In this document: positions 27,497 through 45,747 of the stretch, in pieces
How positions within the stretch are numbered: the first letter of the stretch is position 1
Layout of the letters: every line of letters starts with the position of its first letter
DNA from: Pseudomonadota bacterium
GTDB taxonomy: Bacteria; Desulfobacterota; Syntrophorhabdia; Syntrophorhabdales; Syntrophorhabdaceae
NCBI GenBank assembly: GCA_026388315.1
Contig: JAPLKA010000085.1
Span: forward strand, 1 to 46,245
Reading direction: 5' to 3'
DNA: 46,245 nucleotides
Notes under the pieces: generated by a model
Seen by the model: only the letters and a program-made list of their open reading frames with translations
What the model was told of the DNA's origin: nothing
Databases searched by the model: none
Made by a program: the position numbers and the translations under genes

Positions 27497-27578
27497 AACT
27501 TTCCTTATAATCCATAAAAGTCATTCGCATGCAGTATTATGCCGGCTATGTGAAGCATCAAAAAAAGGAGGCTTTTTT

Positions 27579-28073
27579 ATGATCAGAAGATGCGGCGATA
27601 CGGATTTTGAAGTAATACTCGACATAATAAACGATGGAGCAAGGGCTTATGAAGGCGTGATACCGGCTGATTGCTGGCACGAGCCGTATATGACGCATGA
27701 AGAATTAAGGTTTGAAATACAGGATGGTGTTCTTTTCTGGGGGTATGAGGAGAAATACGGTCTGAACGCCGTCATGGGTATACAGGATAAAAATGATGCG
27801 ATACTTATCCGTCATGCCTACGTGCGGACAGCAAGGAGAAATCAGGGGATTGGCGAGAAGTTGCTCCGTTTCCACGAACTTCAGACAACCAAGCCAATGC
27901 TTATCGGAACATGGGCAGATGCGCTCTGGGCAATAGCATTCTACAAAAAGCATGGATACCGGCTCCTTGAGACGGAAGAGAAGAACCGGCTGCTGATGCG
28001 ATACTGGACTATCTCAAGGCGACAGGTAGAAACTTCTGTTGTGCTTGCAGATAAGAAATGGACCAGCATATGA
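27579..28073 (+). CDS. GNAT family N-acetyltransferase
   Basis: A 164-residue acetyltransferase-fold protein. It has the early strand FEVILDIINDGARAYEGVIP, the acetyl-CoA loop RRNQGIGEKLL and the late FYKKHGYRLLE motif. I chose the ATG at 27579, which has AAAAGGAGG eight bases upstream; the frame is open a further 81 codons back into the AraC gene but is not coding there. The gene end overlaps the MFS start by 16 bases, so the two are coupled. Substrate is unknown. Confidence 0.85.
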   Translation: MIRRCGDTDFEVILDIINDGARAYEGVIPADCWHEPYMTHEELRFEIQDGVLFWGYEEKYGLNAVMGIQDKNDAILIRHAYVRTARRNQGIGEKLLRFHELQTTKPMLIGTWADALWAIAFYKKHGYRLLETEEKNRLLMRYWTISRRQVETSVVLADKKWTSI

Positions 28074-29299: not shown

Positions 29300-29844
29300 G
29301 CAGGCTAAGAGCACTTAATATTAAAATTGGTTGGATCGAAATCCATTCCCGTTTATTGATAACCACATGAAAGCTGCTACATACCGAGCACTGGTCGGGT
29401 TAAGAATTACAATAAATAATGGTTGATCTGGCAAGACAAACAAATCTATTGATAAGCAGGTGTTAGCGATGAATTCCGGTTATCCGCAAGGAGGTTCGTA
29501 AAACCAAGGAACGAATACCAAAATTGGCGGGGTTTCCTTTTAAAAGGGCTGAGAAAGGTAAACAATGTGTAAAATAAGGGACACCCAGAGTTGATTAGCT
29601 CGCAAAAAAATCACGGGTTTCATCTTTATTCCGCCTCGCAAGGTTGCTGCGGGCTTCATGCCATATCTGGCTATGAGTGTCCCATATTTCAGTAATAGCA
29701 CATGAAGTTATATGTGTCAAGCAGCCCTTTTCATATGTCATCTTAAAGTTAAAAGTGAACTCTTGTTCAAGAGAGGCAGTGTACTTTTAACAAAAGCCCT
29801 CATGTTATCAATCATTTCTTCGACCTGGAGGGCATGAGAAAATA
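29300..29844. other. Gene-free stretch with a TGTCCC-ended inverted repeat
   Basis: No full gene is seen. A 120-base unit (29571-29690) is bounded by AAAATAAGGGACACCCAGAG and an inverted near-copy, 16 of 20 positions matching, resembling a REP/MITE-like unit. A 48-codon minus-strand frame (29741 to 29595) passes through it; its residues look protein-like, with a WDTHSQIWHEA segment, but there is no Shine-Dalgarno sequence and I do not recognise it. It may be a gene remnant. Confidence 0.4.
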
Positions 29845-30175
29845 TATTAACCCAACGGCGTTGTGGCCGGAAGAACTTTGCGGCTTCGCCGTTAAACTGT
29901 TATGCGAGTCGCGACTTCGAGTATGTCTTGGGGCCACCCATCTCAGCGCTTCGATGGGTGGCCGCTTGCGGGTGGACAAGTTCGAAAATTGAGTGGATGC
30001 GTTGCGACCCCGCTGTCGACGCGGGATACCCCGCATTACTGGCAAGGGTAAGGAAGCGCAGGGAGCAGGGAGGGTAAGGTTTAATTGCGAACACGGTGAG
30101 CAACAACAGTGTTCCGGCCATACCTTACTGCTCACCCCTTTCCAGAAAGTTTCGCCGCCCGCGAGCCTCTAAATT
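29845..30175. other. GC-rich relic-like segment with attC-like palindrome and a strong hairpin
   Basis: By eye this segment is clearly richer in G+C than its AT-rich surroundings. From 29845 to 29905, TATTAAC-CC-AACGGCG faces CGCCGTT-AAACT-GTTATGC, resembling the core and inner arms of an integron attC site; the AACGGCG/CGCCGTT arms are exact. Then GGCCACCCATC (29932-29942) pairs exactly with GATGGGTGGCC (29953-29963). The overlapping minus-strand frames of 73 and 107 codons show no domain pattern. It looks like transferred or repeat-derived DNA. Confidence 0.35.
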
Positions 30176-30204
30176 GAGTGCAGGGAAGATATTTTTTTGC
30201 TCTA

Positions 30205-30274
30205 TTTTGTATACAAAAATACTTGACAATTATTTTAAGTGATACTATAGTTGATTCATTAAAATTGTATACAG
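30205..30274 (+). promoter_or_regulatory. Operon promoter flanked by two GTATAC palindromes (candidate GntR operators)
   Basis: TTGACA (30223-30228) and TATAGT (30246-30251) are 17 bases apart, a near-consensus sigma-70 promoter with start near 30258. TTTTGTATACAAAA (30205-30218) is a perfect palindrome just upstream of the -35. A second copy, TTGTATACAG (30265-30274, with TGTATACA exact), lies just after the start point. Two sites around a promoter suggest repression with possible looping. The GntR/FCD protein encoded by the second gene of the operon is the obvious candidate. Confidence 0.7.
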
Positions 30275-30291
30275 TATCCAAAGGGGGAACC

Positions 30292-31491
30292 ATGGAAGAT
30301 CACGAGATTTTTAAAAACATTACCGTCCTTTCGCTTGAACAGGCAACGGTCTTGCCGTACCTTTCCTACAGACTTGCCATGGATGGGGCAAACATTATAC
30401 GAATGGAGCACCCTGTCTATGGAGACCCGAACAGAAGGGTAGGCGAAAACAGGCTTAACGAAGACAGGATGTACACGTATTTCCTTACCATTAACTGCAA
30501 CAAAAAGGCCATTACCCTGGATCTGGGTACGCCGGAAGGCAAGGAAATCTTCAGGGATTTGCTTATAAAACTGGATGTTGACATATTTGCCACAAACCAG
30601 CTCCCGAGGAATTATCCAAAGCTCGGCATTGATTACGAAGCAGTAAAATCCATCAAGCCCGATATTATATGGGTGGGCCTTACTGGTTTCGGCCCCGAAA
30701 GTAATGAGGCTGCCTATGACCCCATTCTCCAGGCAAGAAGCGGACTCATGGAAGTCACTGGCGACAAAAACGGTCCTCCGTATGTCCTCGGTGTACCGCT
30801 CCCCGATATGGGCGCCAGCGAACATGCGTACGGGTTGATCATGAAAGCCCTCTATAAGCGGGCAATGACTAAGGAAGGTTCGAGGATCGATGTTTCCATG
30901 TTCCAGAGTACCGTCTCTTGGCTTACCGTCCCCATTACCCAGACAAAATCCTTCAATAAAAAGATCACGAGGAGAGGGAATACCCATGAGTTTTTCGCGC
31001 CCGTAAGCGTCTACAAGACCAAAGACGGGTATGCATATGTTGCCGTCGGGAACGACATCCAGTGGGAAAGGATGCTGAAAATCAGCGGCTTTGAGGGCCT
31101 GGCGAAGCCGGAATATGCACGGAACGAGGGAAGGATAAAGAATGTTGATAATCTGAACAAGGCCGTTGAAGAGGCTACGGTGAAGTATACCATCGATGAA
31201 CTTACTGCCCTGTTCACTAACGCCACCATTCCTATCTCCAAGGTCAACACTATAGAAGAAGTTCTCGAAGACCCCTATATAAAGGATGAAATACTCTCTT
31301 CTACCGATGCAAAGACAGGGACAACGATTTATCTTGCACCGTTACCCCATACAACAAGTTATGTAAAATCTGTGAACAGGAAACTGCCCTTCCCGCCAAG
31401 ATTTGGCGAACAAAACGAAGAGATTTATATGAATACCCTTGGCTACACAAGAGAAAGACTGGACGAATGGAAAACAAAGGGAATAATTTGA
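30292..31491 (+). CDS. Class III (CaiB/BaiF) CoA-transferase, IaaL-like by context
   Basis: Transfers CoA between carboxylic acids without ATP. The 399-residue protein has the family N-terminus (VLSLEQATVLPYLSYRLAMDGAN), the YDPILQARSGLMEVTG motif and a likely catalytic Asp172 in GVPLPDMGASEHA. ATG 30292 with AAGGGGG upstream is preferred over the longer open frame, which would start upstream of the promoter. It is the first gene of the catabolic operon. In the anaerobic indoleacetate pathway of Aromatoleum, a class III enzyme (IaaL, letter from memory) handles phenylsuccinyl-type CoA esters. That role fits the mutase downstream but is inferred. Confidence 0.85.
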   Translation: MEDHEIFKNITVLSLEQATVLPYLSYRLAMDGANIIRMEHPVYGDPNRRVGENRLNEDRMYTYFLTINCNKKAITLDLGTPEGKEIFRDLLIKLDVDIFATNQLPRNYPKLGIDYEAVKSIKPDIIWVGLTGFGPESNEAAYDPILQARSGLMEVTGDKNGPPYVLGVPLPDMGASEHAYGLIMKALYKRAMTKEGSRIDVSMFQSTVSWLTVPITQTKSFNKKITRRGNTHEFFAPVSVYKTKDGYAYVAVGNDIQWERMLKISGFEGLAKPEYARNEGRIKNVDNLNKAVEEATVKYTIDELTALFTNATIPISKVNTIEEVLEDPYIKDEILSSTDAKTGTTIYLAPLPHTTSYVKSVNRKLPFPPRFGEQNEEIYMNTLGYTRERLDEWKTKGII

Positions 31492-31500
31492 GGAGGTCAA

Positions 31501-32217
31501 ATGAATACCCCCGATGAGCAGCCCACTGTGAGGAAAGGGAAATTTTTGAGGGAACAGGTTTATAAAACATTAAAAAATACTATTTTAATCGGTGGTTTAC
31601 AGCCGAAGAAGAGGCTCATTGAAGAAAAACTTGCCGATGAGATGGGGACAAGCAGAACTCCCGTGAGGGAGGCCATACAGAAACTCGAAAAGGAAGGCCT
31701 CATACACAAACTCCCCAGAGGCGGTTATGCGGTAAGCATTGTCACCGATGAGGATATTGAAGAGGTATTCGGAATACGGAGTGTCCTTGAAGGGTATGCA
31801 GGGTATCTTGCCACATCGAGGGCAACAGAAGACGACATAAAGGCATTGGAAGAGATTGTTCAGAAAGAAGAAGAATGCCTCAAAAAGAATAACACGGAAG
31901 AGATTATACAATTAAATACCGAATTTCATGACATATTATACAAAGCAGCAAAAAGCGCTAAACTGTACACTATAATTAACGATCTGAGAGATTGCATTTA
32001 CCGGTACAGGATCATAATTTTCCGTTACAGCGGTATGGCAGAAATATCTATTAATGATCACAAGGACATGATCAACCTCATGAAGGAGAAAAATGCCATG
32101 CAGGTGGAGAAGCTTGTCCGGAAACACATCATAAGGGGAAAGAACCTGATAAAGAAAAAAATCAAAAGAGATGTCATAAAACATGGACTTGGTCAAAAAA
32201 CTTCTTCAGGGAGATGA
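31501..32217 (+). CDS. GntR family transcriptional regulator, FCD (FadR) subfamily
   Basis: A 238-residue regulator with an N-terminal winged helix (about 15-80; LKNTILIGGLQPKKRLIEEKLADEMGTSRTPVREA) and a C-terminal all-helical FCD domain (about 95-215) with acidic and His residues (EFHDILY, DHKDMINLM) that normally hold a metal and bind an organic acid or acyl-CoA effector. It follows the CoA-transferase by 9 bases with a GGAGG Shine-Dalgarno. It is the likely repressor for the GTATAC palindromes at the operon promoter, and perhaps for the similar site before the kinase at 10922. Its coding end overlaps meaB by 35 bases. Confidence 0.9.
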   Translation: MNTPDEQPTVRKGKFLREQVYKTLKNTILIGGLQPKKRLIEEKLADEMGTSRTPVREAIQKLEKEGLIHKLPRGGYAVSIVTDEDIEEVFGIRSVLEGYAGYLATSRATEDDIKALEEIVQKEEECLKKNNTEEIIQLNTEFHDILYKAAKSAKLYTIINDLRDCIYRYRIIIFRYSGMAEISINDHKDMINLMKEKNAMQVEKLVRKHIIRGKNLIKKKIKRDVIKHGLGQKTSSGR

Positions 32218-33121
32218 GAAGAGTGCGGCACGCCTCATCTCTATGGTAGAGGAAGGACGGCCCGAAGGCTTCAAAGCCATTTCGCTTATATATCCCCATA
32301 CCGGTAAAGCACATGTCATTGGTGTTACCGGTGCACCCGGTGCAGGAAAAAGCACCCTGATTGGTAAGCTTGCTATGAGTTTTGTCAGCGAGGGCAAAAA
32401 GATCGGAATCATTGCTGTTGACCCGACAAGCTCAAAAGGTGGCGGGGCACTTCTCGGCGACCGCGTGCGAATGCGGGAAGCCGATAAAACAGGAGGGATC
32501 TTTATAAGATCAATGGCCCACAGGGGATATCCAGGCGGCATTGCAAAGGCAACAATCGGGGCAACGTACGTCCTCGAGGGTCTCGGCAAGGATATTATTA
32601 TGGTGGAAAGTGTCGGTGCCGGCCAGACCGAGATCCAGATATCTGCATTGTGTGATACCGTTATTACTGTTGTAACGTCTGATTACGGGGATGATATTCA
32701 GCTTATGAAGGCAGGGCTTATTGAAATAGGAGATATTGTTGCTGTAAATAAGGCGGACAAGTCAGGGGCGGAAGACACTGTGAGGGACATTTCGATGCAT
32801 ATCGGGGATCGTAAACAGAATGGCTGGAAGATTCCCGTTGTCACAGTCCAGTCAATGAGCGGGGAAGGCGTGGAAGGGCTTAAAAATCACCTTGATGCAC
32901 ATTTTTCTTTTCTCAAGGAAGACGCCTCTGGTATTCAAAAGAAAAAAGCGCGCTTAAAAGCAATGATGCTGTCTCTTTTAAAAGAAGAAATGTGGAATAC
33001 ATTGATGGATAAGTGGAGCAATACCGGTGAGTTTCAAGGTATTGTAGGGCAACTCGAGGATGGAAAGGTGGACCCTTATGCAGCAGTGCACCAGGCATCC
33101 GAAATGATGTTTCGTACATAA
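32183..33121 (+). CDS. meaB: Methylmalonyl-CoA mutase-associated GTPase (MeaB/ArgK family)
   Basis: A G-protein chaperone that guards and reloads B12 in acyl-CoA mutases. The 312-residue protein has Walker A GAPGAGKST (50-58), switch-type DPTSSKGGGALLGDR, the ESVGAGQTE motif and base-recognition NKAD. This matches MeaB of methylmalonyl-CoA mutase operons. The ATG at 32183 lies within the GntR gene's end, giving a 35-base overlap and coupled translation. The mutase subunits are two genes downstream, which makes this mutase the likely client. Confidence 0.92.
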   Translation: MDLVKKLLQGDEKSAARLISMVEEGRPEGFKAISLIYPHTGKAHVIGVTGAPGAGKSTLIGKLAMSFVSEGKKIGIIAVDPTSSKGGGALLGDRVRMREADKTGGIFIRSMAHRGYPGGIAKATIGATYVLEGLGKDIIMVESVGAGQTEIQISALCDTVITVVTSDYGDDIQLMKAGLIEIGDIVAVNKADKSGAEDTVRDISMHIGDRKQNGWKIPVVTVQSMSGEGVEGLKNHLDAHFSFLKEDASGIQKKKARLKAMMLSLLKEEMWNTLMDKWSNTGEFQGIVGQLEDGKVDPYAAVHQASEMMFRT

Positions 33122-33134
33122 CAGATGGTTTGGG

Positions 33135-34277
33135 ATGGATTTTAACTTTACACAGGAACAGATATTTTTCAGGGAACAGGTCGCGAAGGCCCTCAAAGAA
33201 CTTGTTGAGCCACAGGCTTCAACGATAGACAAAGAAGACAGGTTCCCCCATGCATTGTTTAAAAAACTGGGTAGCTTAGGCTACTACGGTGTACGGTACC
33301 CCCAGGAAATCGGTGGCATGGGGGCAGACTGCACCACGTTTACCATTCTTGCTGAAGAGCTTGCCCGTGTCTCCGTAGCCTTTTCAGCCATTGTCACCAT
33401 GCAGTGCCTCATGGGTACGGATTTTATCCACCGCTTTGGCACGAAAGATCACATAGAACGCCTCCTTATTCCTGCCATTAAAGGAGAAAAGATAGCCACC
33501 ATTGCCTTTACCGAGCCGGATTATGGTTCTGATCTAGGGGCAATAAAGACAAAAGCTGTAAAAGAAGGAAATGAGTACGTGATCAGAGGCAGAAAGATGT
33601 GGATCACAAGTGCTGAAGTAGCTGATTTTGTGACTGTTGTTGCTACGGTGGACCCTTCAAAACGCCTCAAGGGCCTCGCCTTTTTCCTTGTTGAGAAGGG
33701 CACACCCGGTTTTTCGGTTGGTCAGAGGATTGATAAGATGTCAGCCAGGGGTTCGGTTACCGGAGAATTGATCTTTGATGAGTGCCGTATTCCTGAGACA
33801 AACCTTCTCGGAGAAGAGGGAAAGGGCGCCCAGTACCTTGAAGGACTTTTAAGCGAAATCAGGGTCATGATTGCGGGGTTGGGGCTCGGGCTTGCCCGGA
33901 GCGCTTATGCCGCCGGGATTAAATATGCTCAGGAACGGGAAGCCTTCGGGAAACCTGTTTCTCAATTCCAGCTCATTCAGGAAAAGATTGCAGAGATGGA
34001 GATGCGCATTAAAAGTACATGGCTTCTTACCTATCATGCAGCATGGCTTAAGGATCATGGCATGCCTGCAAAGAAAGAGGCTGCCATGGCAAAATTATAT
34101 TCCACCGAAACAGCAACGTATGTGGTGGACCAGGTGACAAGGATACACGGGGCATATGGTATTGCAGAGGAATACCATGTTGAGAGGCTATACAGGGATG
34201 CACGTTTTCTCCTCTACGGAGGGGGGACGTCGGAAATATTGAAGACGATTATTGCGAAAGAGTGCCTTAAAACATAA
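33135..34277 (+). CDS. Acyl-CoA dehydrogenase with Gly at the usual catalytic Glu position, IaaF-like by context
   Basis: An FAD-dependent acyl-CoA dehydrogenase-fold protein of 380 residues. It has AFTEPDYGSDLGAIKT and the FAD-contacting KMWITSAEVADFVTV, and a C-terminal RDARFLLYGGGTSEI. In most members this last motif reads YEGTSEI, with Glu as the base; here the position is Gly363. A Glu (241) lies in the helix where isovaleryl- and long-chain enzymes carry their alternative base, offset by one residue. In the proposed pathway it would oxidise, perhaps with decarboxylation, the benzylmalonyl-type CoA made by the mutase. Electron-transfer flavoprotein genes are not in the window. It starts 13 bases after meaB. 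Confidence 0.85.
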   Translation: MDFNFTQEQIFFREQVAKALKELVEPQASTIDKEDRFPHALFKKLGSLGYYGVRYPQEIGGMGADCTTFTILAEELARVSVAFSAIVTMQCLMGTDFIHRFGTKDHIERLLIPAIKGEKIATIAFTEPDYGSDLGAIKTKAVKEGNEYVIRGRKMWITSAEVADFVTVVATVDPSKRLKGLAFFLVEKGTPGFSVGQRIDKMSARGSVTGELIFDECRIPETNLLGEEGKGAQYLEGLLSEIRVMIAGLGLGLARSAYAAGIKYAQEREAFGKPVSQFQLIQEKIAEMEMRIKSTWLLTYHAAWLKDHGMPAKKEAAMAKLYSTETATYVVDQVTRIHGAYGIAEEYHVERLYRDARFLLYGGGTSEILKTIIAKECLKT

Positions 34278-34327
34278 ACCGCTTTGTGCATGGTGCTTTG
34301 TGCATAATGTAAACTTGGAGGAATTTT

Positions 34328-34726: not shown

Positions 34727-34749
34727 GGATATTGCATTAGGAGGAAAAT

Positions 34750-36378
34750 ATGGCTGTTCCACGATACATTAAAGACAAAAAGGATCAGATTCTGGATGTC
34801 ATTCTGGAATCCGGAATCCATGTAAAGCCTTCCTATACACCTGAAGACCTGGAACATATCGGCTTCAATTACGAAAAAGACGTTGCAGACCCGGGAAAAT
34901 ATCCATTTACAAGGGGAATACACCCCATGGGCTACAGGTCGAGGGCATGGACAACACGTCAGTATACCGGTTTCGGAAGCCCGGCGGAGACGAATGAGCG
35001 CTTCCAGCTCATGATTGCCCATGGCCAGACAGGGTTGAATGTTGCCTTTGATCTGCCGACACAGATGGGATATGACTCGGACGATCCCATGGCTGAAGGA
35101 GAAGTGGGACGGGTGGGCATGGCAGTAGATACACTCCGTGACTTTGAAATTGCCTTTAAGAACATACAATTAGACAAGATCGGTGCAGGACTTACTATCA
35201 ATGCCGTGGCATCCATTATGCTTGCCATGTATCAGGCGGTAGCGGAAAAATTCGGGTACGATGCAAAAGTCATATCTGCAACACCTCAGAATGACATATT
35301 GAAAGAGATGATAGGTAGAGGGGCATGGATTTTCCCTGTGGAGCCGGCGGTGAAACTCATCGGTGACACGATCGAGTATTCTATGACCACCATGCCAAAG
35401 ACAAACCCTGTAAGTGTATGCGGGTACCACATCAGAGAATCCGGTGCAACACCGGCCCAGGAAATCGCTTATGCTATCCTCATTGCCAACGCATACATCG
35501 ATAATGTCCTTGCAAGGGGATACGATGTAGATGAATTTGTCGGGAGGTTTTCCTTTAATTTCAATGTGTTCGGCAATATGTGGGAACAGATTGCCAAATT
35601 CAGGGCGGCCCGGAAGCTCTGGGCACGGAATCTGAAAGAGAAATACAATGTAAAAAAGGCACAAAACCTTTTTCTGCGTGGGCTTTTCGGGGGTGGCGGA
35701 TATGGACTCACCAAGGCACAGCCGGAAAACAACATCATGAGAGGGGCATATTATGCGCTCGTAGCTGCCCTGTCAGGTGCACAAACAACGGCATTGTGCA
35801 GTTTTGACGAAGCCTTTACGATTCCAACACCTCATTCAGCGCTTCTCTCGCTCCGCACGCTCCAGCTATTAATGGATGAGATGGGCCTGAGGGATACCGT
35901 TGATCCACTTGCCGGAAGCTACTTCATCGAAACGCTCACAAAAGAGATGGAGCAGAAAATCGAGGAAGAGATGGAAAAGATTGTAAAGTACGGTGGCATC
36001 ACAAAGGCTGTTTCTGATGGGTATATCCAGAGACTTGTTGCACATCAGGCCTTTGAAGTGGAAAAAGGACTTGAATCAGGGGAGCTTCTGAAGGTAGGTG
36101 TCAATATCTATAAAGAGGGTGCCCCCATGGATGTAGAACTCCACGAGTATAACTATGAGACTGCCGAAAAACAGATTGAAAGCCTGCATCAGGTCAAGCG
36201 GGCACGTTCGGAGAGTGATGTGGCACGTACCCTGAAAGAGCTTGAAACTGCAACACTGGAGGGGAAGAATGTGATGCCCCATCTCGTTGAGTGCTGTAAG
36301 GCATATGCAACAGTTGGTGAAATGACGGGCATCTTCAGGCAGGTTTTTGGTGAATTCCAGGAACCAGGGCTGTTTTAG
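34750..36378 (+). CDS. Acyl-CoA mutase large (catalytic) subunit, methylmalonyl-CoA-mutase family
   Basis: The TIM-barrel subunit of a B12-dependent acyl-CoA mutase (542 residues; no B12 domain fused). Aligning by eye with Propionibacterium methylmalonyl-CoA mutase gives one constant offset of 17: Tyr89 becomes Tyr72 (TTRQYTG), Arg207 becomes Arg190 (NDILKEMIGRG), His244 becomes His227 (CGYHIRESG). Tyr and Arg at these sites bind a free carboxylate; isobutyryl- and hydroxyisobutyryl-CoA mutases have other residues. A succinyl-type substrate is therefore predicted, including (2-aminophenyl)succinyl-CoA in the indoleacetate pathway. TPQ replaces the common TIQ beside the active site, and LCSFDEA replaces HTNS-type sequence, so it may not be the ordinary enzyme of propionate metabolism. 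Confidence 0.9.
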   Translation: MAVPRYIKDKKDQILDVILESGIHVKPSYTPEDLEHIGFNYEKDVADPGKYPFTRGIHPMGYRSRAWTTRQYTGFGSPAETNERFQLMIAHGQTGLNVAFDLPTQMGYDSDDPMAEGEVGRVGMAVDTLRDFEIAFKNIQLDKIGAGLTINAVASIMLAMYQAVAEKFGYDAKVISATPQNDILKEMIGRGAWIFPVEPAVKLIGDTIEYSMTTMPKTNPVSVCGYHIRESGATPAQEIAYAILIANAYIDNVLARGYDVDEFVGRFSFNFNVFGNMWEQIAKFRAARKLWARNLKEKYNVKKAQNLFLRGLFGGGGYGLTKAQPENNIMRGAYYALVAALSGAQTTALCSFDEAFTIPTPHSALLSLRTLQLLMDEMGLRDTVDPLAGSYFIETLTKEMEQKIEEEMEKIVKYGGITKAVSDGYIQRLVAHQAFEVEKGLESGELLKVGVNIYKEGAPMDVELHEYNYETAEKQIESLHQVKRARSESDVARTLKELETATLEGKNVMPHLVECCKAYATVGEMTGIFRQVFGEFQEPGLF

Positions 36379-36466
36379 CAACAGGGTTCAAGGGGTCGAG
36401 TGATTTAAAAATGCTTAAGCCCTTGGATCTTGGAACTCTTGAGCCCGAATTGAGTTAGGAGGATAC
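36379..36466. repeat. Repeat-like spacer between mutase and hyuA
   Basis: The 88-base gap holds GGGTTCAAGGGGTCGAG and later CCCTTGGATCTTGGAACTC, which partly pair. It is the same kind of low-complexity spacer seen between other genes of the operon. A GGAGG Shine-Dalgarno sequence ends it. Confidence 0.4.
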
Positions 36467-38569
36467 ATGAGAGACAAATATTACCGGCTGGGCTGCGACA
36501 TCGGCGGAACATTCACCGACTTTGTCCTGCTCAACGATCAAACAGGAGAGATACAAACCGGCAAGTGCCTGACTACACCACAGGACCCCTCCGATGCAGT
36601 TGAAGAAGGGATAAGGGCGCTGGAGGTGACATCACCGGACTTTGTCGGGAAGCTGGACGAATTGATACACGGAACAACCCTTGTCATCAATTCCATCATC
36701 GAGAGAAAGGGAGCCAGAACAGGGCTCATCACGACGAAAGGTTTCAGGGATGTACTGGAGATAGGCCGCGAGATACGCTATGCACCTTACGACATATTCG
36801 CAGAATTTCCCCAACCCCTGATCCCCAGGAGATACCGCATCGAGGTGGATGAAAGGGTCCGCAGCGATGGAACCGTCTTGAAGGCGCTGGATGTGGAAGA
36901 TGCAAAAAAGGCGGTTCGCACCCTGCTTGGCATGGGTGTGGAGTCGATCGCCGTTTGTCTCCTCAATTCCTTTGAGAATCCGTCCCATGAGCTGATGCTC
37001 CAGGAGATCATCGAAAAAGAGGCTCCGGGCATCTCCACATCGATTTCGTACCATGTTCTGCCGCAGATCAAGGAATATGAAAGAACAAGCACCACGGTTA
37101 CCAACGCCTATGTCAAACCCCTTACGGGACGTTATCTGTCCAAACTGGCCGACAGGCTTGATTCTATCGGCTTCAAGGGCAAACTCTTTATCATGCTGAG
37201 CAGCGGCGGTGTTACCTCTGTGGATACAGCGGCGCAGTTTCCGGTAAGGATTATCGAGTCCGGACCTACGGCGGCAGTCATTGCAGGCCAGTACTACGGC
37301 AAACACTTCAATATCCCCGAGATGTTCTGTTTCGATATGGGCGGCACAACGGCCAAGTCTTGTCTGATCCAGAAAGGCGTTGCCAGTGTGGTGCCGACAT
37401 TCGAAGTGGGACGCGTTCAGAGGTTCATGAAGGGAAGCGGGCTCACGATTCAGGTGCCCGTCGTTGACCTGATGGAGATAGGCGCAGGCGGCGGCAGTAT
37501 TGCTAAAATAAGCAAGCTTGGCACCCTTCGGGTTGGCCCGGAAAGCTCCAGTGCAGATCCAGGCCCTATCTGTTACGGAAGGGGAGGTAAAGATCCGTGC
37601 GTGACCGATGCGGACCTCCTGCTGGGTTACCTCGACGAGAAATATTTTCTTGGAGGGACCATGAGCCTCGACAAGGAGGGTGCACGCCGCGGTGTGGAAG
37701 AGAAGATTGCAAAACCGCTCGGTGTTTCCTTTATTCAGGCCCTCTGGGGTATCCATGATCTCATCAACGAAACAATGGCAGCGGCAGCAAAGACGCATAT
37801 CGCCGAAAAGGGCGGGAACCCCAAGATCGTAACGGTTGCCGCTTTTGGAGGGGCAGGTCCGGTCCACGCTTACGGATTGGCCAAAAAACTGGGTGCGCCC
37901 CGGATGCTGATACCGCCAAATGCTGGTGTAGGATCGGCAATGGGTTTCTTCACCGCCCCGCGGGCATTCGATCTCTTGAGGAGCCATAAGGTTCCCCTGA
38001 GTGATGCTGCATTTTCCGATATTGAGGAGATATTCAAAGGACTTGAGGTCGATGCCGGAAAGATACTGAAGAAGGAAGCGGCCGATGACGCCATTACATA
38101 TGAAAGATCCCTGGATATGCGTTTTGTGGGACAGGGCGCAGAAACGAATGTCCAGGCGCCGTCAGGGGATTTCACAAAACTCAAGAAGGCCGATATCAGA
38201 CGCATCTTCGACGATGCCTATGAGAAGCTCTACGGCAGGACCTACCCCGAATCGGAAGTAGAGTTCATCAACTTCAAGGTCAGGGCAAGCCTTCCGGAAC
38301 GGCTCCTCCAGCTTCCAAAACAGAAAAAGAAAAAGGGACAGTCCCTCGATGAGGCCATCAAAGGACAACGTCCTGCATACTCGCCTATCGCAAAAGATTT
38401 TATACCCTATACGGTTTATGACAGATACAAACTCTTTCCGAAGGCCAGGTTTCAGGGGCCAGCCATTATCGAAGAAAAAGAATCAACCCTCATTGTGGGG
38501 GAAGATGCCCGTGTATCGGTAGATGAGTTTGGATTTCTGTGGATTGACCTTAAGGAGGTAGGAAAATGA
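36467..38569 (+). CDS. Hydantoinase A/oxoprolinase-type subunit (HyuA), ATP-dependent
   Basis: The ATP-binding subunit of the HyuA/HyuB class: N-methylhydantoinase, 5-oxoprolinase, caprolactamase and acetone/acetophenone carboxylases. The 700-residue protein has the N-terminal phosphate motif CDIGGTFTDFVL, a second FDMGGTTAKSCL, EIGAGGGSIAKI and FGGAGPVHAYGLAK. With HyuB but no small gamma subunit nearby, ring-opening of a lactam is more likely than carboxylation. In the indoleacetate pathway such an enzyme opens 2-oxoindole-3-acetate to (2-aminophenyl)succinate. The GGAGG site is 8 bases before the ATG. hyuA and hyuB look richer in G+C than the genes before them. Confidence 0.87.
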   Translation: MRDKYYRLGCDIGGTFTDFVLLNDQTGEIQTGKCLTTPQDPSDAVEEGIRALEVTSPDFVGKLDELIHGTTLVINSIIERKGARTGLITTKGFRDVLEIGREIRYAPYDIFAEFPQPLIPRRYRIEVDERVRSDGTVLKALDVEDAKKAVRTLLGMGVESIAVCLLNSFENPSHELMLQEIIEKEAPGISTSISYHVLPQIKEYERTSTTVTNAYVKPLTGRYLSKLADRLDSIGFKGKLFIMLSSGGVTSVDTAAQFPVRIIESGPTAAVIAGQYYGKHFNIPEMFCFDMGGTTAKSCLIQKGVASVVPTFEVGRVQRFMKGSGLTIQVPVVDLMEIGAGGGSIAKISKLGTLRVGPESSSADPGPICYGRGGKDPCVTDADLLLGYLDEKYFLGGTMSLDKEGARRGVEEKIAKPLGVSFIQALWGIHDLINETMAAAAKTHIAEKGGNPKIVTVAAFGGAGPVHAYGLAKKLGAPRMLIPPNAGVGSAMGFFTAPRAFDLLRSHKVPLSDAAFSDIEEIFKGLEVDAGKILKKEAADDAITYERSLDMRFVGQGAETNVQAPSGDFTKLKKADIRRIFDDAYEKLYGRTYPESEVEFINFKVRASLPERLLQLPKQKKKKGQSLDEAIKGQRPAYSPIAKDFIPYTVYDRYKLFPKARFQGPAIIEEKESTLIVGEDARVSVDEFGFLWIDLKEVGK

Positions 38570-40275
38570 AACGTGCGTTTGATCCGATCACGTTAGAGAT
38601 ATTATGGAGAAGGCTGATTTCCATTGTTGACGAGGCGGACGGCAGTGTTGCCCGCACCGCCTTTTCGAGCCTGCTCAGGGATGCCCATGACTATACCTGC
38701 ATGTTTACGGACAGATTGGGCCGGGAACTGGCTCAGGGGAGCTATGCAACCCCCGGACAGTCCGGCGCCATGGCCCTGGGTATAAAGAATCTGGTTAACA
38801 AGTACCCGTTGGAACATTACCAGCCAGGCGATGTATTTATCACGAACGATCCCTGGGCGCTCGCGGGTCATTTGAATGACGTATGTGTTATGAGCCCTAT
38901 ATTTTACAAGGAGCAACTGGTTGCCTTTACGGCAAGCGTATTTCACCATTCCGATATCGGTGGGCGTGTTGCCTCCGACAACCACGATGTTTTTGAGGAA
39001 GGTCTTTTTATTCCCTTCGTAAAGCTATACGACAAGGGAGTCCTCAACGAGTCGGTGCTCGATATGATCAGGTGGAACGTGCGAACCCGCGAGGAGGTGA
39101 TCGGCGATATACGGTCCCAGATCGCAGCGAACCACGTGTGCGGTGAAAAGATACGGCAGATGCTGAAAGAGAGCAACCTTGAAAACCTGGACGATCTGGC
39201 GGATCAGATTATCGGTTTGACCGAAAAAAGCATGAGGGAAGAGATCGAAAAGATCCCCGATGGCCTCTATCATGCTAAAGGCGTAATCGAGCAGATGAAA
39301 GGAAAAGACGATATCATCATCCAGGCGAAGGTCGAGATAAAGGGAAGCGATATCATTGTAAATCTCGACGGTTCTTCCGGTCAGGTAGACTGGGGCGGAA
39401 ACGTTGTTTATAATTTTACCTATGCCTATGTATTTATGGCAATAAAAAGCATGTTTGCCCCGGACATCCCGAACAACGATGGCTGCGCCAGGCCTATACA
39501 GCTTTTTGCCCCTGAAGGAACCGTTGTGAACTGCAAGTTCCCTGCAGCCGTGGCTGCACGGATGGGGGTGGGCCATTTTCTTACTGAGGTCATTTACCGG
39601 GCATTGTCCAATGTTCTACCCAACAGGGTGATCGCAGCTTCCGGCGGTACGCCGGCTGCTATGAACGTATTTTACGGAAGAAGGAAAGACGGGAAGCCGT
39701 GGCACTCCGTGATTATCCGGGGAGGCGGCATGGGCGCAGGCGCGTCCAACGACGGGAACTATGTCTATATCTTCCCGGCCAACGGCGCCAATACGCCTGT
39801 TGAGATATTTGAAAGTGACACCCCGCTTATCGTAGAGAAGAGAGAACTCCTCTCCGATTCAGGCGGCTGCGGCAAGATGAAGGGCGGTCTCGGAAAAAGG
39901 GAAGTCTTCAGGATACCCGACGATCAGTATGCCCCCATGCCCCCGGTTAACCTGGGGATCCAGTCAGGAAGGTATATCTATCCGGCGGAAGGGCTCTTTG
40001 ACGGTAAAACTGGCACAAAGGCCCAGTTTCTGGTCAACGGCGTTCCGGGTAACTCCTATGGATTGACACAGATGAAGCCCGGTGACGTGGTCATCATCGA
40101 CGCCCCCGGCGGCGGAGGATACGGCAAACCTTTTGAGCGCGACCCGGAAATGGTGGTCAGCGACGTCATTGAAGGATATGTGAGCATTGAAAGTGCCATG
40201 AATGATTATGGTGTTGTTATTAGTCCGGTAACCGGAGAAATTGACTGGAAAGAAACAAAGAAGCTGAGAAAGTAG
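38566..40275 (+). CDS. Hydantoinase B/oxoprolinase-type subunit (HyuB)
   Basis: The 569-residue partner of HyuA, overlapping its stop by 4 bases (ATGA), which is strong evidence of a complex. Family motifs are DPITLEILWRRL at the start, LRDAHDYTCMFTD, DVFITNDPWALAGHLNDV (metal and substrate region), HHSDIGGR and a Gly-rich end GDVVIIDAPGGGGYG. Length is typical (520-600). The substrate cannot be read from sequence; the neighbouring molybdenum hydroxylase, which makes cyclic amides from N-heterocycles, supports a lactam such as 2-oxoindole-3-acetate. Confidence 0.87.
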   Translation: MKRAFDPITLEILWRRLISIVDEADGSVARTAFSSLLRDAHDYTCMFTDRLGRELAQGSYATPGQSGAMALGIKNLVNKYPLEHYQPGDVFITNDPWALAGHLNDVCVMSPIFYKEQLVAFTASVFHHSDIGGRVASDNHDVFEEGLFIPFVKLYDKGVLNESVLDMIRWNVRTREEVIGDIRSQIAANHVCGEKIRQMLKESNLENLDDLADQIIGLTEKSMREEIEKIPDGLYHAKGVIEQMKGKDDIIIQAKVEIKGSDIIVNLDGSSGQVDWGGNVVYNFTYAYVFMAIKSMFAPDIPNNDGCARPIQLFAPEGTVVNCKFPAAVAARMGVGHFLTEVIYRALSNVLPNRVIAASGGTPAAMNVFYGRRKDGKPWHSVIIRGGGMGAGASNDGNYVYIFPANGANTPVEIFESDTPLIVEKRELLSDSGGCGKMKGGLGKREVFRIPDDQYAPMPPVNLGIQSGRYIYPAEGLFDGKTGTKAQFLVNGVPGNSYGLTQMKPGDVVIIDAPGGGGYGKPFERDPEMVVSDVIEGYVSIESAMNDYGVVISPVTGEIDWKETKKLRK

Positions 40276-40385
40276 GAAGTTAAGAAAGAAATTAGCTATG
40301 CACAGAATTTTAGTAATTGAGTGAATAAGTAAATGAGTAATTAAAATCACTTAATCACTTAATCACTTATTTACTTGATTACTGT
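40276..40385. repeat. Semi-tandem and palindromic spacer between hyuB and the ligase
   Basis: AGGAAGTTAAGAA appears at the start, and its reverse complement occurs at 15690-15720. Next come GAATAAGTAAATGAGTAAT, three tandem copies of the 8-base unit AATCACTT (about 40350-40375) and TTACTTGATTACT, which together form a long imperfect palindrome. No gene is seen. Confidence 0.5.
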
Positions 40386-40419
40386 AACCGCTGTTTTGAT
40401 AAAGGAGGAAGGAAACGAT

Positions 40420-41724
40420 ATGGAAAGACCATTTGATGCAAAAGTAAAAACAGAGAAGGAGCTCAAAGCGCTTCAGCTTGAGGGTCTGAAATGGACGGTG
40501 GACCATGTTTATAACGGTTCTGGCCATTACCGGAAAAAATTTGACGAAGCTGGTGTAAAGCCGGCGGACATTAAAACGCTGGAAGACTTACGGAAATTGC
40601 CCTTTACTTCCAGCAAAGACCTTCAGGAAGGCTATCCCTTTCCGCTCCTGAGCGTACCCATGGAGAAGGTTGTCCGCATCCATGCATCCAGCGGTACCAC
40701 CGGTAAAAGGAAGGTGCTTTGTTATACCGCAAAAGATGTAGATGACTGGGCGGAGATGTTCGCGCGGTGTTATTCCTATGCAGATTGTACCGTGGAAGAC
40801 AGGATACAGATCGCAGTGGGGTATGGTGTATGGACAGCGGGATGGGGTTTCCAGAACGGCTGCGAACGTTTCGGTGCCATGTCAATCCCCATAGGCCCGG
40901 GCAACACGGATATGCAGTGCCAGTTCCTCGAAGATTTCGGGACAACGGCCATGTGCTGTACTGCGTCCATGGGGCTTCTTATGGCGGAGCTTATCGCAGA
41001 ACGGGGGCTTAAAGGTAAGATTGCTCTGAAAAAGATGATCTTCGGGTCGGAACGCGCCAGTGATGCCATGAGGATGCGAATTTCTGAACTTTCAGGGGTC
41101 AGCTACGACCAACTCTTTGATATTCCCGGTATGACTGAGTTGTACGGACCGGGAACCGGTCTGGACTGCAGGTACCATAAAGGCATTCACCACTGGGCCG
41201 ATTACTACATACTGGAGATTTTGAACCCTGACACACTGGAGCCTGTTCCACCGGGAGAAGTGGGGGAAATGGTGGTAACGACTCTGAAAAAGGAAGCAGC
41301 GCCGCTCATCCGTTACCGGACACGGGACCTGACAAGGATGATACCAGAGCAGTGCCCCTGCGGAAGTATTATGCCCATGCACGACAGGATCCTCGGCAGA
41401 TCCGATGACATGTTTATCTTCAGGGCTGTCAATATTTACCCGAGCCATATCGATCAGATACTGTCCAACATCAAAGGCGTGGGCAGCGAGTATCAGATTG
41501 TCCTTTACCGGAAAGAGGCAGGTGGAAAAGACCACATGACGATCAGGGTCGAGCGGGCCCATGGTGTACAGCACTCTCATGACTCGGATAAGCACACCAG
41601 GAAGGCCACCGAGCACGAAATAAAAAAGCAGGTGTTAGTGAGCTGTGATGTGGAAATTGAGGACTACGGCTCATTACCGCGGTCTGACAGGAAAACAAAA
41701 AGGGTATTTGATAATAGAGACTGA
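40420..41724 (+). CDS. PaaK-like acyl-CoA ligase, AMP-forming (IaaB-like by context)
   Basis: An adenylate-forming ligase of 434 residues, the size of phenylacetate-CoA ligases. It has the P-loop ASSGTTGKRK, IPGMTELYGPG (A5-like), YRTRDLTRM and the C-terminal lid LGRSDDMFIFRAVNIYPS. ATG 40420 has AAAGGAGG upstream; the frame extends 15 codons further but only into the repeat spacer. In Aromatoleum, a ligase of this type (IaaB, from memory) makes indoleacetyl-CoA. Here it lies between HyuAB and the molybdenum hydroxylase. It could instead act on another aryl acid. Confidence 0.9.
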   Translation: MERPFDAKVKTEKELKALQLEGLKWTVDHVYNGSGHYRKKFDEAGVKPADIKTLEDLRKLPFTSSKDLQEGYPFPLLSVPMEKVVRIHASSGTTGKRKVLCYTAKDVDDWAEMFARCYSYADCTVEDRIQIAVGYGVWTAGWGFQNGCERFGAMSIPIGPGNTDMQCQFLEDFGTTAMCCTASMGLLMAELIAERGLKGKIALKKMIFGSERASDAMRMRISELSGVSYDQLFDIPGMTELYGPGTGLDCRYHKGIHHWADYYILEILNPDTLEPVPPGEVGEMVVTTLKKEAAPLIRYRTRDLTRMIPEQCPCGSIMPMHDRILGRSDDMFIFRAVNIYPSHIDQILSNIKGVGSEYQIVLYRKEAGGKDHMTIRVERAHGVQHSHDSDKHTRKATEHEIKKQVLVSCDVEIEDYGSLPRSDRKTKRVFDNRD

Positions 41725-41820
41725 TAAAGACAGTGAATAGTAATAGTAGACAGTGAATAGTTGAAAGGGCAGTCGAGTCTTTTGCTATTCACTATGGACT
41801 ATTCACTAACGGCTGCTCTT
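41725..41820. repeat. Inverted GTGAATAG repeats between ligase and Mo-hydroxylase genes
   Basis: AGTGAATAG occurs at 41732 and 41752, and its exact reverse complement CTATTCACT at 41785 and 41799. The gap can therefore fold as one long hairpin in two registers. The same word is found at 3270. It might reduce read-through or protect RNA ends between the two parts of the operon. Confidence 0.55.
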
Positions 41821-41835
41821 AAAAAGGAGGTTACT

Positions 41836-42810
41836 GTGAGAAGCTTTGAATACCACAAACCGGAGACGGTTCAGGAAGCAGTTGAATTGATGGGCGCCCT
41901 TGATAATGCGAAGTATATTGCCGGCGGGACAGATGTAATGGTGCTTTTCAGGCAGAAGAAGATTGCGCCGGCAAACCTTATTTCTCTGAGGAGTATCAAT
42001 GACCTTGTTTACATTGATGAGCAGGACGGCTTAAAGATCGGAAGTGCCGCGACACTTTCCGCGATTGCGAAGGATGAATTCATCAAACGCTCTTATTCGG
42101 CACTCAATGATGCCGCAACCCGTCTCGGTTCACTTCAGATCCGGAACGTTGCAACGATGGGCGGAAATATATGCAATGCAGCGCCTTCTGCTGATACGGC
42201 ATGTCCTCTTCTTGTTCTTGATGCAAAGGTCATAATTGTTGGGCAAAAAGGGGAGAGGGAGGTGGATATCGATGATTTCTTCCTCGGACCTAATAAAGTA
42301 GCCCTTGAAAAGGGTGAGATTGTAAAAGGTTTTCATATGCCGCAATTTGGAAACAATACGGGCTCTGCCTATATAAAACATACAAGAAGGCAGGCAATGG
42401 ATCTCCCCATGATAGGGGTAGGTGCACGGATAACGATCAAGATCGGCAAAAGCGAGGCGCGCTGCCATGATGCCCTTTGCACTATTGATAACATTTCCAA
42501 CGTGCTTGCACGTCTCCAGGACGAAGAGCTGGAGATTGAGGATGCACGGATAGCCATGGGGGTTGTTGCTCCGAGACCTATACGGGCGAAACAGGCTGAA
42601 GCAGCCCTGAAGGGAAAAGTCGTATCGGAAAAACTCTTCCGAGAAATCGGGGAGATTGCAATGTCAGAAGCCCAGCCAAGGGACAGCATCAGAGGCGAGG
42701 CATGGTACAGGAAGGAAATGGTGAAAGTTCTTGTAAGAAGGGCTCTTATGCGGTCAATCGACAGAATCATCAGGCCGGACGATACAATTTATCCGGAGAG
42801 ATTATGGTAA
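41836..42810 (+). CDS. Molybdenum hydroxylase FAD-binding subunit (xanthine dehydrogenase family)
   Basis: The medium, FAD-carrying subunit of a three-part Mo hydroxylase, 324 residues. FAD contacts are visible in YIAGGTDVMVLF and TMGGNICNAAPSADT, with the CO-dehydrogenase flavoprotein C-terminal domain after about residue 180. I chose the GTG at 41836 because AAAGGAGG precedes it and the family starts here (SFEYHKPETVQEAVEL). The extra 4Fe-4S loop of 4-hydroxybenzoyl-CoA reductase is not seen. It passes electrons from the 2Fe-2S subunit to an acceptor. Confidence 0.9.
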   Translation: MRSFEYHKPETVQEAVELMGALDNAKYIAGGTDVMVLFRQKKIAPANLISLRSINDLVYIDEQDGLKIGSAATLSAIAKDEFIKRSYSALNDAATRLGSLQIRNVATMGGNICNAAPSADTACPLLVLDAKVIIVGQKGEREVDIDDFFLGPNKVALEKGEIVKGFHMPQFGNNTGSAYIKHTRRQAMDLPMIGVGARITIKIGKSEARCHDALCTIDNISNVLARLQDEELEIEDARIAMGVVAPRPIRAKQAEAALKGKVVSEKLFREIGEIAMSEAQPRDSIRGEAWYRKEMVKVLVRRALMRSIDRIIRPDDTIYPERLW

Positions 42811-42884
42811 GGAAACAGTGTTGAGTTGTGAGTGTTGAGTTAAAACATTGAACATAAAACCTTGAACGATATTAGGGGGTAACG
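42811..42884. repeat. Short repeat spacer between FAD and 2Fe-2S subunit genes
   Basis: GTGTTGAGTT occurs twice (about 42819 and 42831), followed by ACATTGAACATAAAACCTTGAACG, a degenerate CTTGAAC-type repeat shown here only in outline. It ends in AGGGGG upstream of the next ATG. No gene is seen. Confidence 0.4.
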
Positions 42885-43352
42885 ATGAAAAAAGAAATAA
42901 CGTTCACTTTAAATAACGAAGTAATGGAGGTAGAAGTTGATCCCGGATGGACACTCCTTTATCTGCTGAGGGAAGTCCTTGAGATGACCGGTACGAAAGA
43001 AGGTTGCGGTTACGGGGAATGCGGCGCCTGTACGGTAATCATAGACGGCCAGGCGGTGAATTCATGCCTGTATCCTGTCATGGAGGCCGAAGGGAGGAAG
43101 GTTACCACCATAGAAGGCGTCATGTCAAAAAGCGGTGAGCTTGACCCCGTCCAGCATGCCTTAGTACAGAACGGCGCTGTTCAATGTGGATTCTGCACAC
43201 CGGGCATGGTTATGTCTGCAAAGGCGCTCCTGGATGAAAAGGAAAAACCGACGGAAGACGATATCAAGGAGAGCATCGAAGGCAATCTCTGCAGGTGCAC
43301 CGGGTATGTCAATATTATCGATGCTATAAAATCTGTTGCAGGCGGGAGGTGA
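42885..43352 (+). CDS. Molybdenum hydroxylase 2Fe-2S subunit
   Basis: The small iron-sulfur subunit of 155 residues. The plant-type cluster ligands are Cys41, 46, 49 and 61 (CGYGECGACT ... C). The second cluster uses Cys102, 105, 137 and 139 (CGFCTPGM ... CRC). All eight ligands are present, so both clusters should form. It carries electrons from the Mo site to the FAD subunit. The stop lies just before the large-subunit ATG at 43355. Confidence 0.95.
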   Translation: MKKEITFTLNNEVMEVEVDPGWTLLYLLREVLEMTGTKEGCGYGECGACTVIIDGQAVNSCLYPVMEAEGRKVTTIEGVMSKSGELDPVQHALVQNGAVQCGFCTPGMVMSAKALLDEKEKPTEDDIKESIEGNLCRCTGYVNIIDAIKSVAGGR

Positions 43353-43354
43353 AT

Positions 43355-45637
43355 ATGAGCGATCTCACAAAAGTAGGACAGAGGATTCCAAAGAAGGATG
43401 CGCCGTTAAAGGTTACCGGCGCTGCGGTATATATACAGGATATGAAAGTACCGGGCATGCTTTATGGCAAGATCCTGTACAGTAAGTACGCCCACGCAAA
43501 AATACTGAAAATAGATACCAGCAAGGCAGAAAAGCTTCCCGGTGTAAGGGCTGTGCTGACCGGTGCAGATGTACCGAACAATTTTAAATTCGGCTTCCTT
43601 AAAGATAACCCGCCGCTGAAGACAGGCAAGGTGTTATCCGCGAGGGATGAAGTCGCAGCCGTTGCTGCCATAAGTACTGAAATAGCAGAAGAGGCGCTTG
43701 ATCTCATCGAGGTAGAGTATGAAGAACTGCCGGGAATTTTCGACCCTCTCGATGCCATGAAAGAAGGGGCGCCGCTGATTCATGAAGAATTCAAGTCGAA
43801 CGTCCTGAAGCTGCCCTGGAAGCTGGTCGCCGGCGATGTGGAAGAAGCGAAAAAGGCATCGGCATATATCGCTGAGGACAGCTTCAGCACTCAATGGGTA
43901 ACGCACTGCTGCCTCGGCACGAGCGGCTGTATCGCTGCTTTTGACATGAACAACAATCTCACCATGTACAGCAACACACAGATACCATCTCTTGCACAGA
44001 ATGACTATTTAGAGGCGCTCAAGACCTTTGGCCTGAAAAACAAACGGGTAAGGATTATTCAGTGCGTCATAGGAGGAGGTTTCGGCAGCAAGCTCGACAC
44101 CTATGCCTATGAATACATCGCCGTCCTGCTTGCCTTGAAGACGAGAAAACCAGTGAAGATCGTTTTCTCAAGAGAAGAAGAATTTTTTGCCACTTCCCCG
44201 CGGCAGTGCACGATCACAAAAATCTCACAGGGATGCGACAAGGACGGACGGCTTACCTTCCGTGAAATGGAGATGGTCCTCGATAACGGTGCCTATACAT
44301 CCTGGGGGTCAACAACGCCTTCGGTTATGATGGTGCCCATCTCATCTCTCTACAAGGTACAGAATATTAAATATGTGGCGAAGTGCGTGTATACAAATAA
44401 CACGTACAGCCAGGCAATGAGGGGTTACGGGAACCCTCAGGCGACCTTCGCAATAGAATCATGTCTGGATCAGCTTGCCGAGAAGGCAGGTATTGACCCC
44501 CTTGAGATCCGTCGCATAAACGCGAACGAACCTGGCGAGATCACGCCGCAGAATTTCAGGATTACCTCCTGCGGGATGAAGGAATGTATCGATGAGGTAG
44601 CAAACAGGCTGGACTGGAAAGGTAAAAGAGGGAAACACAACAGCAGGGGTGTTGGTATGGCAAGCCTCATCCACGTTGGAGGCGCTGCCAGGGTATATAA
44701 GTCTGACGGCTGCGGCACCATCATAAAGGTGGATGACAACGGTAAAGTCGATGTCATTACCGGGTCTTCAGAAATCGGCCAGGGATCAGAGACGATTATT
44801 TCTCAGATTGTTGCAGAGGTGCTCGGTATTAACATCGATGATATTAACGTCATCAATAACGACACCGATGTATGCCCCTGGGATGTGGGGGCACACGCGA
44901 GTAGAACTACCTTCGTGGCGGGTAACTCTGCCCTTGGTGCGGCCAAAAAGATAAAGGCCCAGATAATGGAGGTGGCTGCGAAAAACCTTGGCGAAGACCC
45001 GCAATTACTGGATATCAGAGACGGGGTAGTTTTCTCCATAAAAGACAAAGAAAAGAATATACCACTGTCAAAGGTACTGCGGAAGGTCCATTATTCTCTG
45101 GGCGGCAGGATGCTCGTGGCAGAGAACTTCTATGACCCGCCAAACGAAAACTTCGATCAGAACTTTAAGGGCAACCTTTCCGTTTCTTACGCATACGGTG
45201 CCCACGGGGTCGAGGTTGAGGTAGACAAAGATACCGGCCAGGTAAAGATCCTGAATTATATCGCTGCCCACGACGTAGGAAAGGCCATCAACCCCATGCT
45301 ATTGGAAGGGCAGATTTATGGAGGCGGGCTTCAGGGTATCGGTTATGCCCTTGGAGAACGAATGATCTTCGAAAAAGGGGTTCTTAAGAACGGTAATTTT
45401 CTTGATTATAAGATGCCTACAGCAAAAGATGTACCGCCTGTCCAGGCTGTCATTGTTGAAACAGACGAACAGGCCGGACCTTTCGGTGCAAAAGGCATCG
45501 GGGAACCGGGGCTTGTACCGACTGCACCGGCCATTGCAAACGCCATTTATGACGCCGTCGGGGTACGCATCAAAGACCTGCCCATTACGCCGGAAAAGGT
45601 TCTAAGGGCATTGCAGGAAAAAGGGAAAAGCGCCTGA
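43355..45637 (+). CDS. Molybdenum hydroxylase large subunit (xanthine dehydrogenase family, Mo-cofactor binding)
   Basis: The 760-residue catalytic subunit. It has the N-terminal KVTGAAVYIQDM, Mo-cofactor contacts VIGGGFGSKLD, QAMRGYGNPQ and GSSEIGQGSE, and the catalytic Glu717 in GIGEPGLVPTAPA. I chose the ATG at 43355 after GGGAGGT; the frame is open upstream into the 2Fe-2S gene. Such enzymes hydroxylate a carbon next to ring nitrogen using water. Indoleacetate hydroxylation at C2 to the 2-oxo form is the role proposed from context; nicotinate, quinoline or xanthine-type substrates are alternatives. Confidence 0.92.
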   Translation: MSDLTKVGQRIPKKDAPLKVTGAAVYIQDMKVPGMLYGKILYSKYAHAKILKIDTSKAEKLPGVRAVLTGADVPNNFKFGFLKDNPPLKTGKVLSARDEVAAVAAISTEIAEEALDLIEVEYEELPGIFDPLDAMKEGAPLIHEEFKSNVLKLPWKLVAGDVEEAKKASAYIAEDSFSTQWVTHCCLGTSGCIAAFDMNNNLTMYSNTQIPSLAQNDYLEALKTFGLKNKRVRIIQCVIGGGFGSKLDTYAYEYIAVLLALKTRKPVKIVFSREEEFFATSPRQCTITKISQGCDKDGRLTFREMEMVLDNGAYTSWGSTTPSVMMVPISSLYKVQNIKYVAKCVYTNNTYSQAMRGYGNPQATFAIESCLDQLAEKAGIDPLEIRRINANEPGEITPQNFRITSCGMKECIDEVANRLDWKGKRGKHNSRGVGMASLIHVGGAARVYKSDGCGTIIKVDDNGKVDVITGSSEIGQGSETIISQIVAEVLGINIDDINVINNDTDVCPWDVGAHASRTTFVAGNSALGAAKKIKAQIMEVAAKNLGEDPQLLDIRDGVVFSIKDKEKNIPLSKVLRKVHYSLGGRMLVAENFYDPPNENFDQNFKGNLSVSYAYGAHGVEVEVDKDTGQVKILNYIAAHDVGKAINPMLLEGQIYGGGLQGIGYALGERMIFEKGVLKNGNFLDYKMPTAKDVPPVQAVIVETDEQAGPFGAKGIGEPGLVPTAPAIANAIYDAVGVRIKDLPITPEKVLRALQEKGKSA

Positions 45638-45654
45638 TATTTTCATAGTAAATT

Positions 45655-45695
45655 CAAGGGGTAAGAAAATGTTCCTTGCCCCTTGATTACTTTTT
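45655..45695 (+). terminator. Hairpin terminator at the end of the catabolic operon
   Basis: CAAGGGG (45655-45661) pairs with CCCCTTG (45679-45685) 18 bases after the large-subunit stop. ATTACTTTTTCCC follows, giving a short T run. It is a plausible intrinsic terminator, and also resembles the TTCAAGGGG spacer at 36379. Confidence 0.5.
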
Positions 45696-45747
45696 CCCTT
45701 CCCCTTGTTTTTTTGGTAAATCTATAATATTATTTCAAACGGACAAT

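Follow-up and report, generated by a model that had tools for sequence, protein, structure and literature searches.

GTATAC palindromes around the promoter of a putative indoleacetate operon of Syntrophorhabdaceae as probable operators of the operon's own GntR protein

The window, which is the whole stretch of 46,245 nucleotides analysed here (contig 85 of a 3.8-Mb genome), carries a cluster of twelve genes on the + strand, starting with a CoA-transferase gene followed by a gene for a GntR regulator (P0001). The GTATAC palindromes at the promoter of this cluster are very probably operators of that regulator, which would repress its own operon as well as an unlinked acd2-etf-fixC operon; by analogy, an acid of the pathway may relieve this repression. 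For the anaerobic auxin degradation predicted in the largely uncultured Syntrophorhabdaceae and their relatives, this gives a specific operator, a regulator and a regulon of two operons.

Promoter layout and its conservation

The first-pass annotation had described a near-consensus promoter placed between two GTATAC palindromes, and the sequence is exactly as described. The promoter (TTGACA-17-TATAGT) has 11 of 12 consensus matches and is the top promoter-like site within 28000-46245. The elements are the following:

30205..30218, no strand: putative operator site 1, TTTTGTATACAAAA, a perfect 14-bp palindrome with its centre 11 bp 5' of the -35 hexamer
30223..30228, + strand: -35 hexamer TTGACA, invariant in 19 orthologous promoters
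30246..30251, + strand: -10 hexamer TATAGT, with a 17-bp spacer from the -35 hexamer
30265..30274, no strand: putative operator site 2, TTGTATACAG, one mismatch from palindromic, just 3' of the predicted start
30281..30287, + strand: Shine-Dalgarno AAGGGGG, read from the sequence

Transcription is predicted from the sequence to start at about 30258, so that site 1 would lie at about -53 to -40 and site 2 at about +8 to +17, while the ATG of the CoA-transferase gene is at 30292. The two sites are 58 bp apart, or about 5.5 helical turns.

For comparison, 19 promoters of CoA-transferase/gntR operons of the same order were collected by a GntR protein search of 40 related genomes together with one scan of named genomes, these being MAGs labelled Proteobacteria, delta proteobacterium and Syntrophorhabdaceae. 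Mean column conservation is 0.94 at site 1, 1.0 at the -35 hexamer, 0.97 at the -10 hexamer and 0.97 at site 2, with values elsewhere of 0.62 (spacer), 0.58 (gap between the -10 hexamer and site 2) and 0.42 (upstream DNA). All 19 promoters have the GTATAC core at site 2 and 16 have it at site 1, the three altered copies reading GCATAC (G005 and G016) or GTATAT (G014); G005 and G016 have two overlapping sites downstream.

Regarding chance, TTGTATACAA with at most one mismatch occurs six times in the window against 1.5 expected, a count reached by none of 100 shuffles. Dinucleotide shuffling of the 192-bp region produced a palindrome pair 40-70 bp apart only once in 20,000 rounds, and 200 shuffled versions of the whole window contained no such pair. 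The genome scan that the first-pass annotation had proposed for the palindrome gave a divided answer, as exact copies are in excess (13 vs 5 for the reversed control) and one-mismatch copies are not (176 vs 179); thus, a single motif match says little. This lack of enrichment, together with the ease with which A+T-rich sequence gives GTATAC, is what could be expected if the palindromes were chance products of A+T-rich promoter DNA. However, the shuffle tests and the footprint over 19 promoters leave that explanation with practically no probability, and conservation refutes it for practical purposes. The conservation across orthologous promoters settles that the layout is real.

The GntR protein and the palindromes that accompany it

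The assignment of the operon's second gene to the FCD-type GntR regulators, made in the first-pass annotation, was confirmed by domain searches above the curated cut-offs, with 57.6 bits for PF00392 (cut-off 27) and 81.7 bits for PF07729 (cut-off 24.3):

31501..32217, + strand: GntR/FCD (probably VanR-group) regulator, proposed repressor of its own operon (PF00392, PF07729, Foldseek, contact and metal residues)

The reference for this protein is Atu1419 of Agrobacterium fabrum, a VanR-group FCD repressor crystallised on ATGTATACAT, whose helices 2 and 3 contact DNA through Arg31, Glu34, Ser44, Arg45, Thr46 and Arg49, with Arg45 reading the guanine (PMC7797058). Identical counterparts of the six residues are found in P0001 (R38, E41, S51, R52, T53 and R56) and are kept in all 20 GntR orthologues checked; meanwhile, the only two other FCD proteins of the genome have V or P at the R52 position. 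All of the top 11 Foldseek hits of the GntR model are Atu1419 chains, the model itself being moderate (mean pLDDT 73.4, built with four sequences). The FCD domain has six helices in the VanR group and seven in the FadR group, and the model has six long helices and one short helix (170-175), the latter in a low-confidence stretch. By residue alignment, N139, H143, H187 and H209 would form the Asp/Asn and three His metal-ligand set of the FCD domain, a set kept in all 20 orthologues with either N or D beside the three His, and R93 aligns with the citrate-binding Arg86 of Atu1419.

The orthologues that have moved away from the operon provide a separate view of the palindromes. In four relatives (G019, G024, G025 and G027), the gntR orthologue stands alone in another neighbourhood. 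The lone genes of G025 and G027 have TTGTATACAG or CTGTATACAG just 3' of a TTGACA/TATATA-type promoter, and those of G019 and G024 have a degenerate ATATAC palindrome, TATATACAATT, just 5' of TTGACA. Consequently, the palindrome follows the regulator and not the CoA-transferase. Where an auxin-type operon was found in these four relatives, its regulator is a paralogue, and the lone gntR product may therefore respond to something other than an indoleacetate metabolite in some relatives. The stand-alone genes are located at L108 7589-8305, L109 7805-8629, L148 5018-5725 and L153 5012-5758, with trpS adjoining in two of them.

Targeted searches of the genome for further members of the regulon led to a second candidate target, unlinked to the operon of the window:

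G000:C82:37724-42100 (L103 2225-6597): acd2-etfB-etfA-fixC-like operon (acyl-CoA dehydrogenase, ETF beta, ETF alpha and FixC-like protein), with TTGTATACAA over the -10 box

All 18 genomes with a separate promoter for acd2 have the exact TTGTATACAA over its -10 box, as opposed to none of the six with acd2 embedded in a larger operon. In sister genera, acd2, etf and fixC belong to one operon with the CoA-transferase, MeaB, the mutase, the Hyu pair and a gntR paralogue. This arrangement, a single unit in some genera and two units with a common operator in others, is as a common regulon predicts. One genome counts against the GntR reading, namely G001 (86% complete), where the acd2 operator is present and no gntR orthologue was detected.

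A wider regulon was considered and set aside. Three other copies of TTGTATACAA lie 5' of a NuoE operon, of genes for an ABC transporter of the branched-chain amino-acid type and of a BcrA-like ATPase gene, respectively; they are regarded as chance or lineage-specific in view of their poor conservation. The NuoE-operon site recurs intact in a second member of the genus, a third member and one further relative each have it with one mismatch, the ABC-transporter site has one mismatch in one congener, and the BcrA-like ATPase site is absent even from the congener examined. It follows that conservation is not general to such motif matches. The remaining exact genomic copies are inside genes or have no clear target.

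Mode of repression and alternative readings

Autoregulation by the operon's GntR protein, as the first-pass annotation had suggested, is well supported at the sequence level by the promoter footprint, the contact residues, the relocated gntR promoters and the conserved second target operon. The putative operator is located at the promoter that would transcribe gntR (30205-30274), and gntR starts 9 bp after the CoA-transferase gene and is thus expected to be co-transcribed with it. Being the second gene of the operon that it would repress, it would form a negative autoregulatory circuit. The placement of the sites also fits the repression put forward in the same annotation, as site 1 abuts the -35 hexamer, site 2 is just 3' of the predicted start and the acd2 palindrome overlaps the -10 box. 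A GntR dimer on each site could block RNA polymerase by exclusion or stalling, with site 2 acting at promoter clearance, and the same protein would repress the acd2-etf-fixC operon through the one palindrome covering its -10 box. For derepression, the metal-ligand set and R93 argue by analogy for a free carboxylic acid rather than a CoA ester. An acid of the pathway may bind the putative metal-containing FCD pocket, free carboxylates like indoleacetate or (2-aminophenyl)succinate being the likeliest candidates. The identity of this ligand is proposed by analogy only.

Three other readings of the two sites can be compared with autorepression. Site 1 could be an activation site, where GntR or its ligand-bound form at about -46 touches the polymerase at the -35 hexamer and site 2 represses, making the protein a dual regulator. 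The distance from the site 1 centre to the -35 hexamer would suit such a contact, being nearly rigid (10-11 bp in all promoters with an intact site 1 but one, which has 13) when compared to the 14-19 bp between the -10 hexamer and site 2. However, an activator should be superfluous with hexamers already near consensus, the one site of the second target operon covers the -10 box, a position where only repression is likely, and most characterised FCD proteins are repressors, making a dual role improbable. It was also considered whether a tetrameric GntR joins both sites by looping the DNA. Such a loop has been proposed for Atu1419, the closest structural relative and a tetramer seen looping sites 190 bp apart (PMC7797058). 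Here the sites are only 58 bp apart, requiring a very short loop, and a spacing that varies between 53 and 60 bp among relatives keeps no helical phase, making a phased tetramer loop quite unlikely.

The palindromes might instead be bound by another regulator of the organism, since the binding of the GntR protein to them is inferred and most of the 13 exact genomic copies are at unrelated genes. Against this, the palindromes accompany the relocated gntR orthologues, the two other FCD proteins of the genome lack the reading arginine and the three further copies that precede genes show poor conservation or none, which makes a foreign regulator very improbable. Repression by the operon's GntR protein is therefore kept as the preferred reading.

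Pathway and related systems

The genes that accompany gntR in the cluster are listed below:

30292..31491, + strand: family III CoA-transferase (IaaL-like), first gene (PF02515, E 6e-78)
32183..33121, + strand: MeaB-like mutase-associated GTPase, with a 35-bp overlap with the gntR end (PF03308, TIGR00750)
33135..34277, + strand: acyl-CoA dehydrogenase (IaaF-like), with GGG replacing the YEG motif (GGG motif of the IaaF subclass, PMC8360864)
34328..34726, + strand: B12-binding small subunit of an acyl-CoA mutase (IaaGH-like; TIGR00640)
34750..36378, + strand: large subunit of the acyl-CoA mutase (IaaGH-like; TIGR00641)
36467..38569, + strand: hydantoinase A/oxoprolinase-type subunit (PF01968)
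38566..40275, + strand: hydantoinase B/oxoprolinase-type subunit (PF02538)
40375..41724, + strand: PaaK-type aryl-CoA ligase (IaaB-like; TIGR02155 below cut-off)
41761..45637, + strand: xanthine dehydrogenase-family molybdenum hydroxylase, three subunits (domain searches)

An IaaL-type CoA-transferase, an IaaGH mutase, an IaaF with the GGG motif that marks this subclass of acyl-CoA dehydrogenases (PMC8360864) and a CoA ligase are thus found together at the domain and motif level, suggesting that the operon is likely dedicated to anaerobic indoleacetate (iaa) degradation. The same domains and motif liken it to the iaa cluster of Aromatoleum aromaticum (regulators IaaQ and IaaR), with which it has in common the CoA-transferase, B12 mutase, GGG-motif acyl-CoA dehydrogenase and CoA ligase. 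ETF genes have been reported in the iaa operons of strict anaerobes, in agreement with the second operon here, and in A. aromaticum ETF does not accept the electrons of the IaaF-type dehydrogenase (PMC8360864). The acd2-etf-fixC operon is a candidate for the electron-transfer arm of the pathway, and the putative common operator, by tying this unlinked operon to the pathway, bears on how IaaF-type dehydrogenases pass on their electrons.

The proposed circuit is of a well-known kind and a fairly ordinary self-controlling switch, in which a VanR-group FCD repressor acts on its own catabolic operon through GTATAC operators. Literature searches combining the motif and GntR found only Atu1419, and found no paper on GntR control of anaerobic indoleacetate degradation. 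Atu1419 (PDB 6z74, 6za0, 6za3, 6za7 and 6zab) and the regulator of the window have in common, besides the probable fold group and the six identical DNA-contact residues, the Asn/His/His/His metal site, a 10-bp operator of the form nnGTATACnn, with palindromes placed within or near promoters, their own gene's among them, and the role of a catabolic repressor of an aromatic pathway, for P0001 a proposed one. Nevertheless, they share about 23% identity by structural alignment, the outer operator bases are TT..AA here and not AT..AT, the pathway of Atu1419 is that of hydroxycinnamates while an indoleacetate-type one is predicted here, and the sites differ in separation (190 bp against 58 bp). McbR/YncC of E. 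coli and PmiR of Pseudomonas aeruginosa are the closest solved relatives by sequence and also rank high in the fold search; they belong to other pathways and have other ligands.

NanR of E. coli, a GntR/FCD protein with a (GGTATA)3 operator, is similar in being a repressor of a catabolic operon with clustered GTATA words at the promoter, which resemble the arrays of overlapping GTATACA units in sister genera. However, its operator is made of direct repeats and not of separate 10-bp palindromes as here, and P0001, whose HTH domain begins near residue 17, has no equivalent of the 32-residue N-terminal extension through which NanR achieves cooperativity (PMC8012715).

In the arrays of the sister lineages, overlapping GTATAC palindromes with a 7-bp offset lie 5' of the CoA-transferase gene (L111 at about 5770-5815 in G011, L149 upstream of 14064 on the - strand, L110 at 7291, L152 at 2396, L027 at 208-224 and L028 in G016), the longest being AGTATACAGTATACAGTATACAGTATACAGTATT in G011. 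In four array lineages, the recognition helix of the operon's gntR paralogue reads SR[V/I]PVRE or SR[V/I]PIRE and not SRTPVRE, the latter being kept in G005 and G016. It is conceivable, though rather doubtful, that the iaa regulators of the order use an evolving operator code, with separate GTATAC sites in most genera and palindromes overlapping in 7-bp steps, read by an altered-helix paralogue, in the sister lineages. If true, such a code would imply that FCD dimers stack cooperatively along the DNA like a filament, which to our knowledge has not been described as a binding mode for 10-bp FCD palindromes.

Some further elements of the window were noted outside the operon. An AraC-type regulator, an overlapping GNAT-like frame and an oxalate/lactate-type MFS transporter lie upstream of it on the same strand (26645-29299), possibly as a separate catabolic unit. 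The gap of about 900 bp 5' of the operon includes a strong hairpin, GGCCACCCATC...GATGGGTGGCC, at 29932-29963, which has no U tract and whose stretch has a z-score of -2.3. In addition, a tRNA-Sec gene is present at 13543-13634 on the - strand (Rfam RF01852, 72.6 bits), and the organism therefore probably makes selenoproteins.
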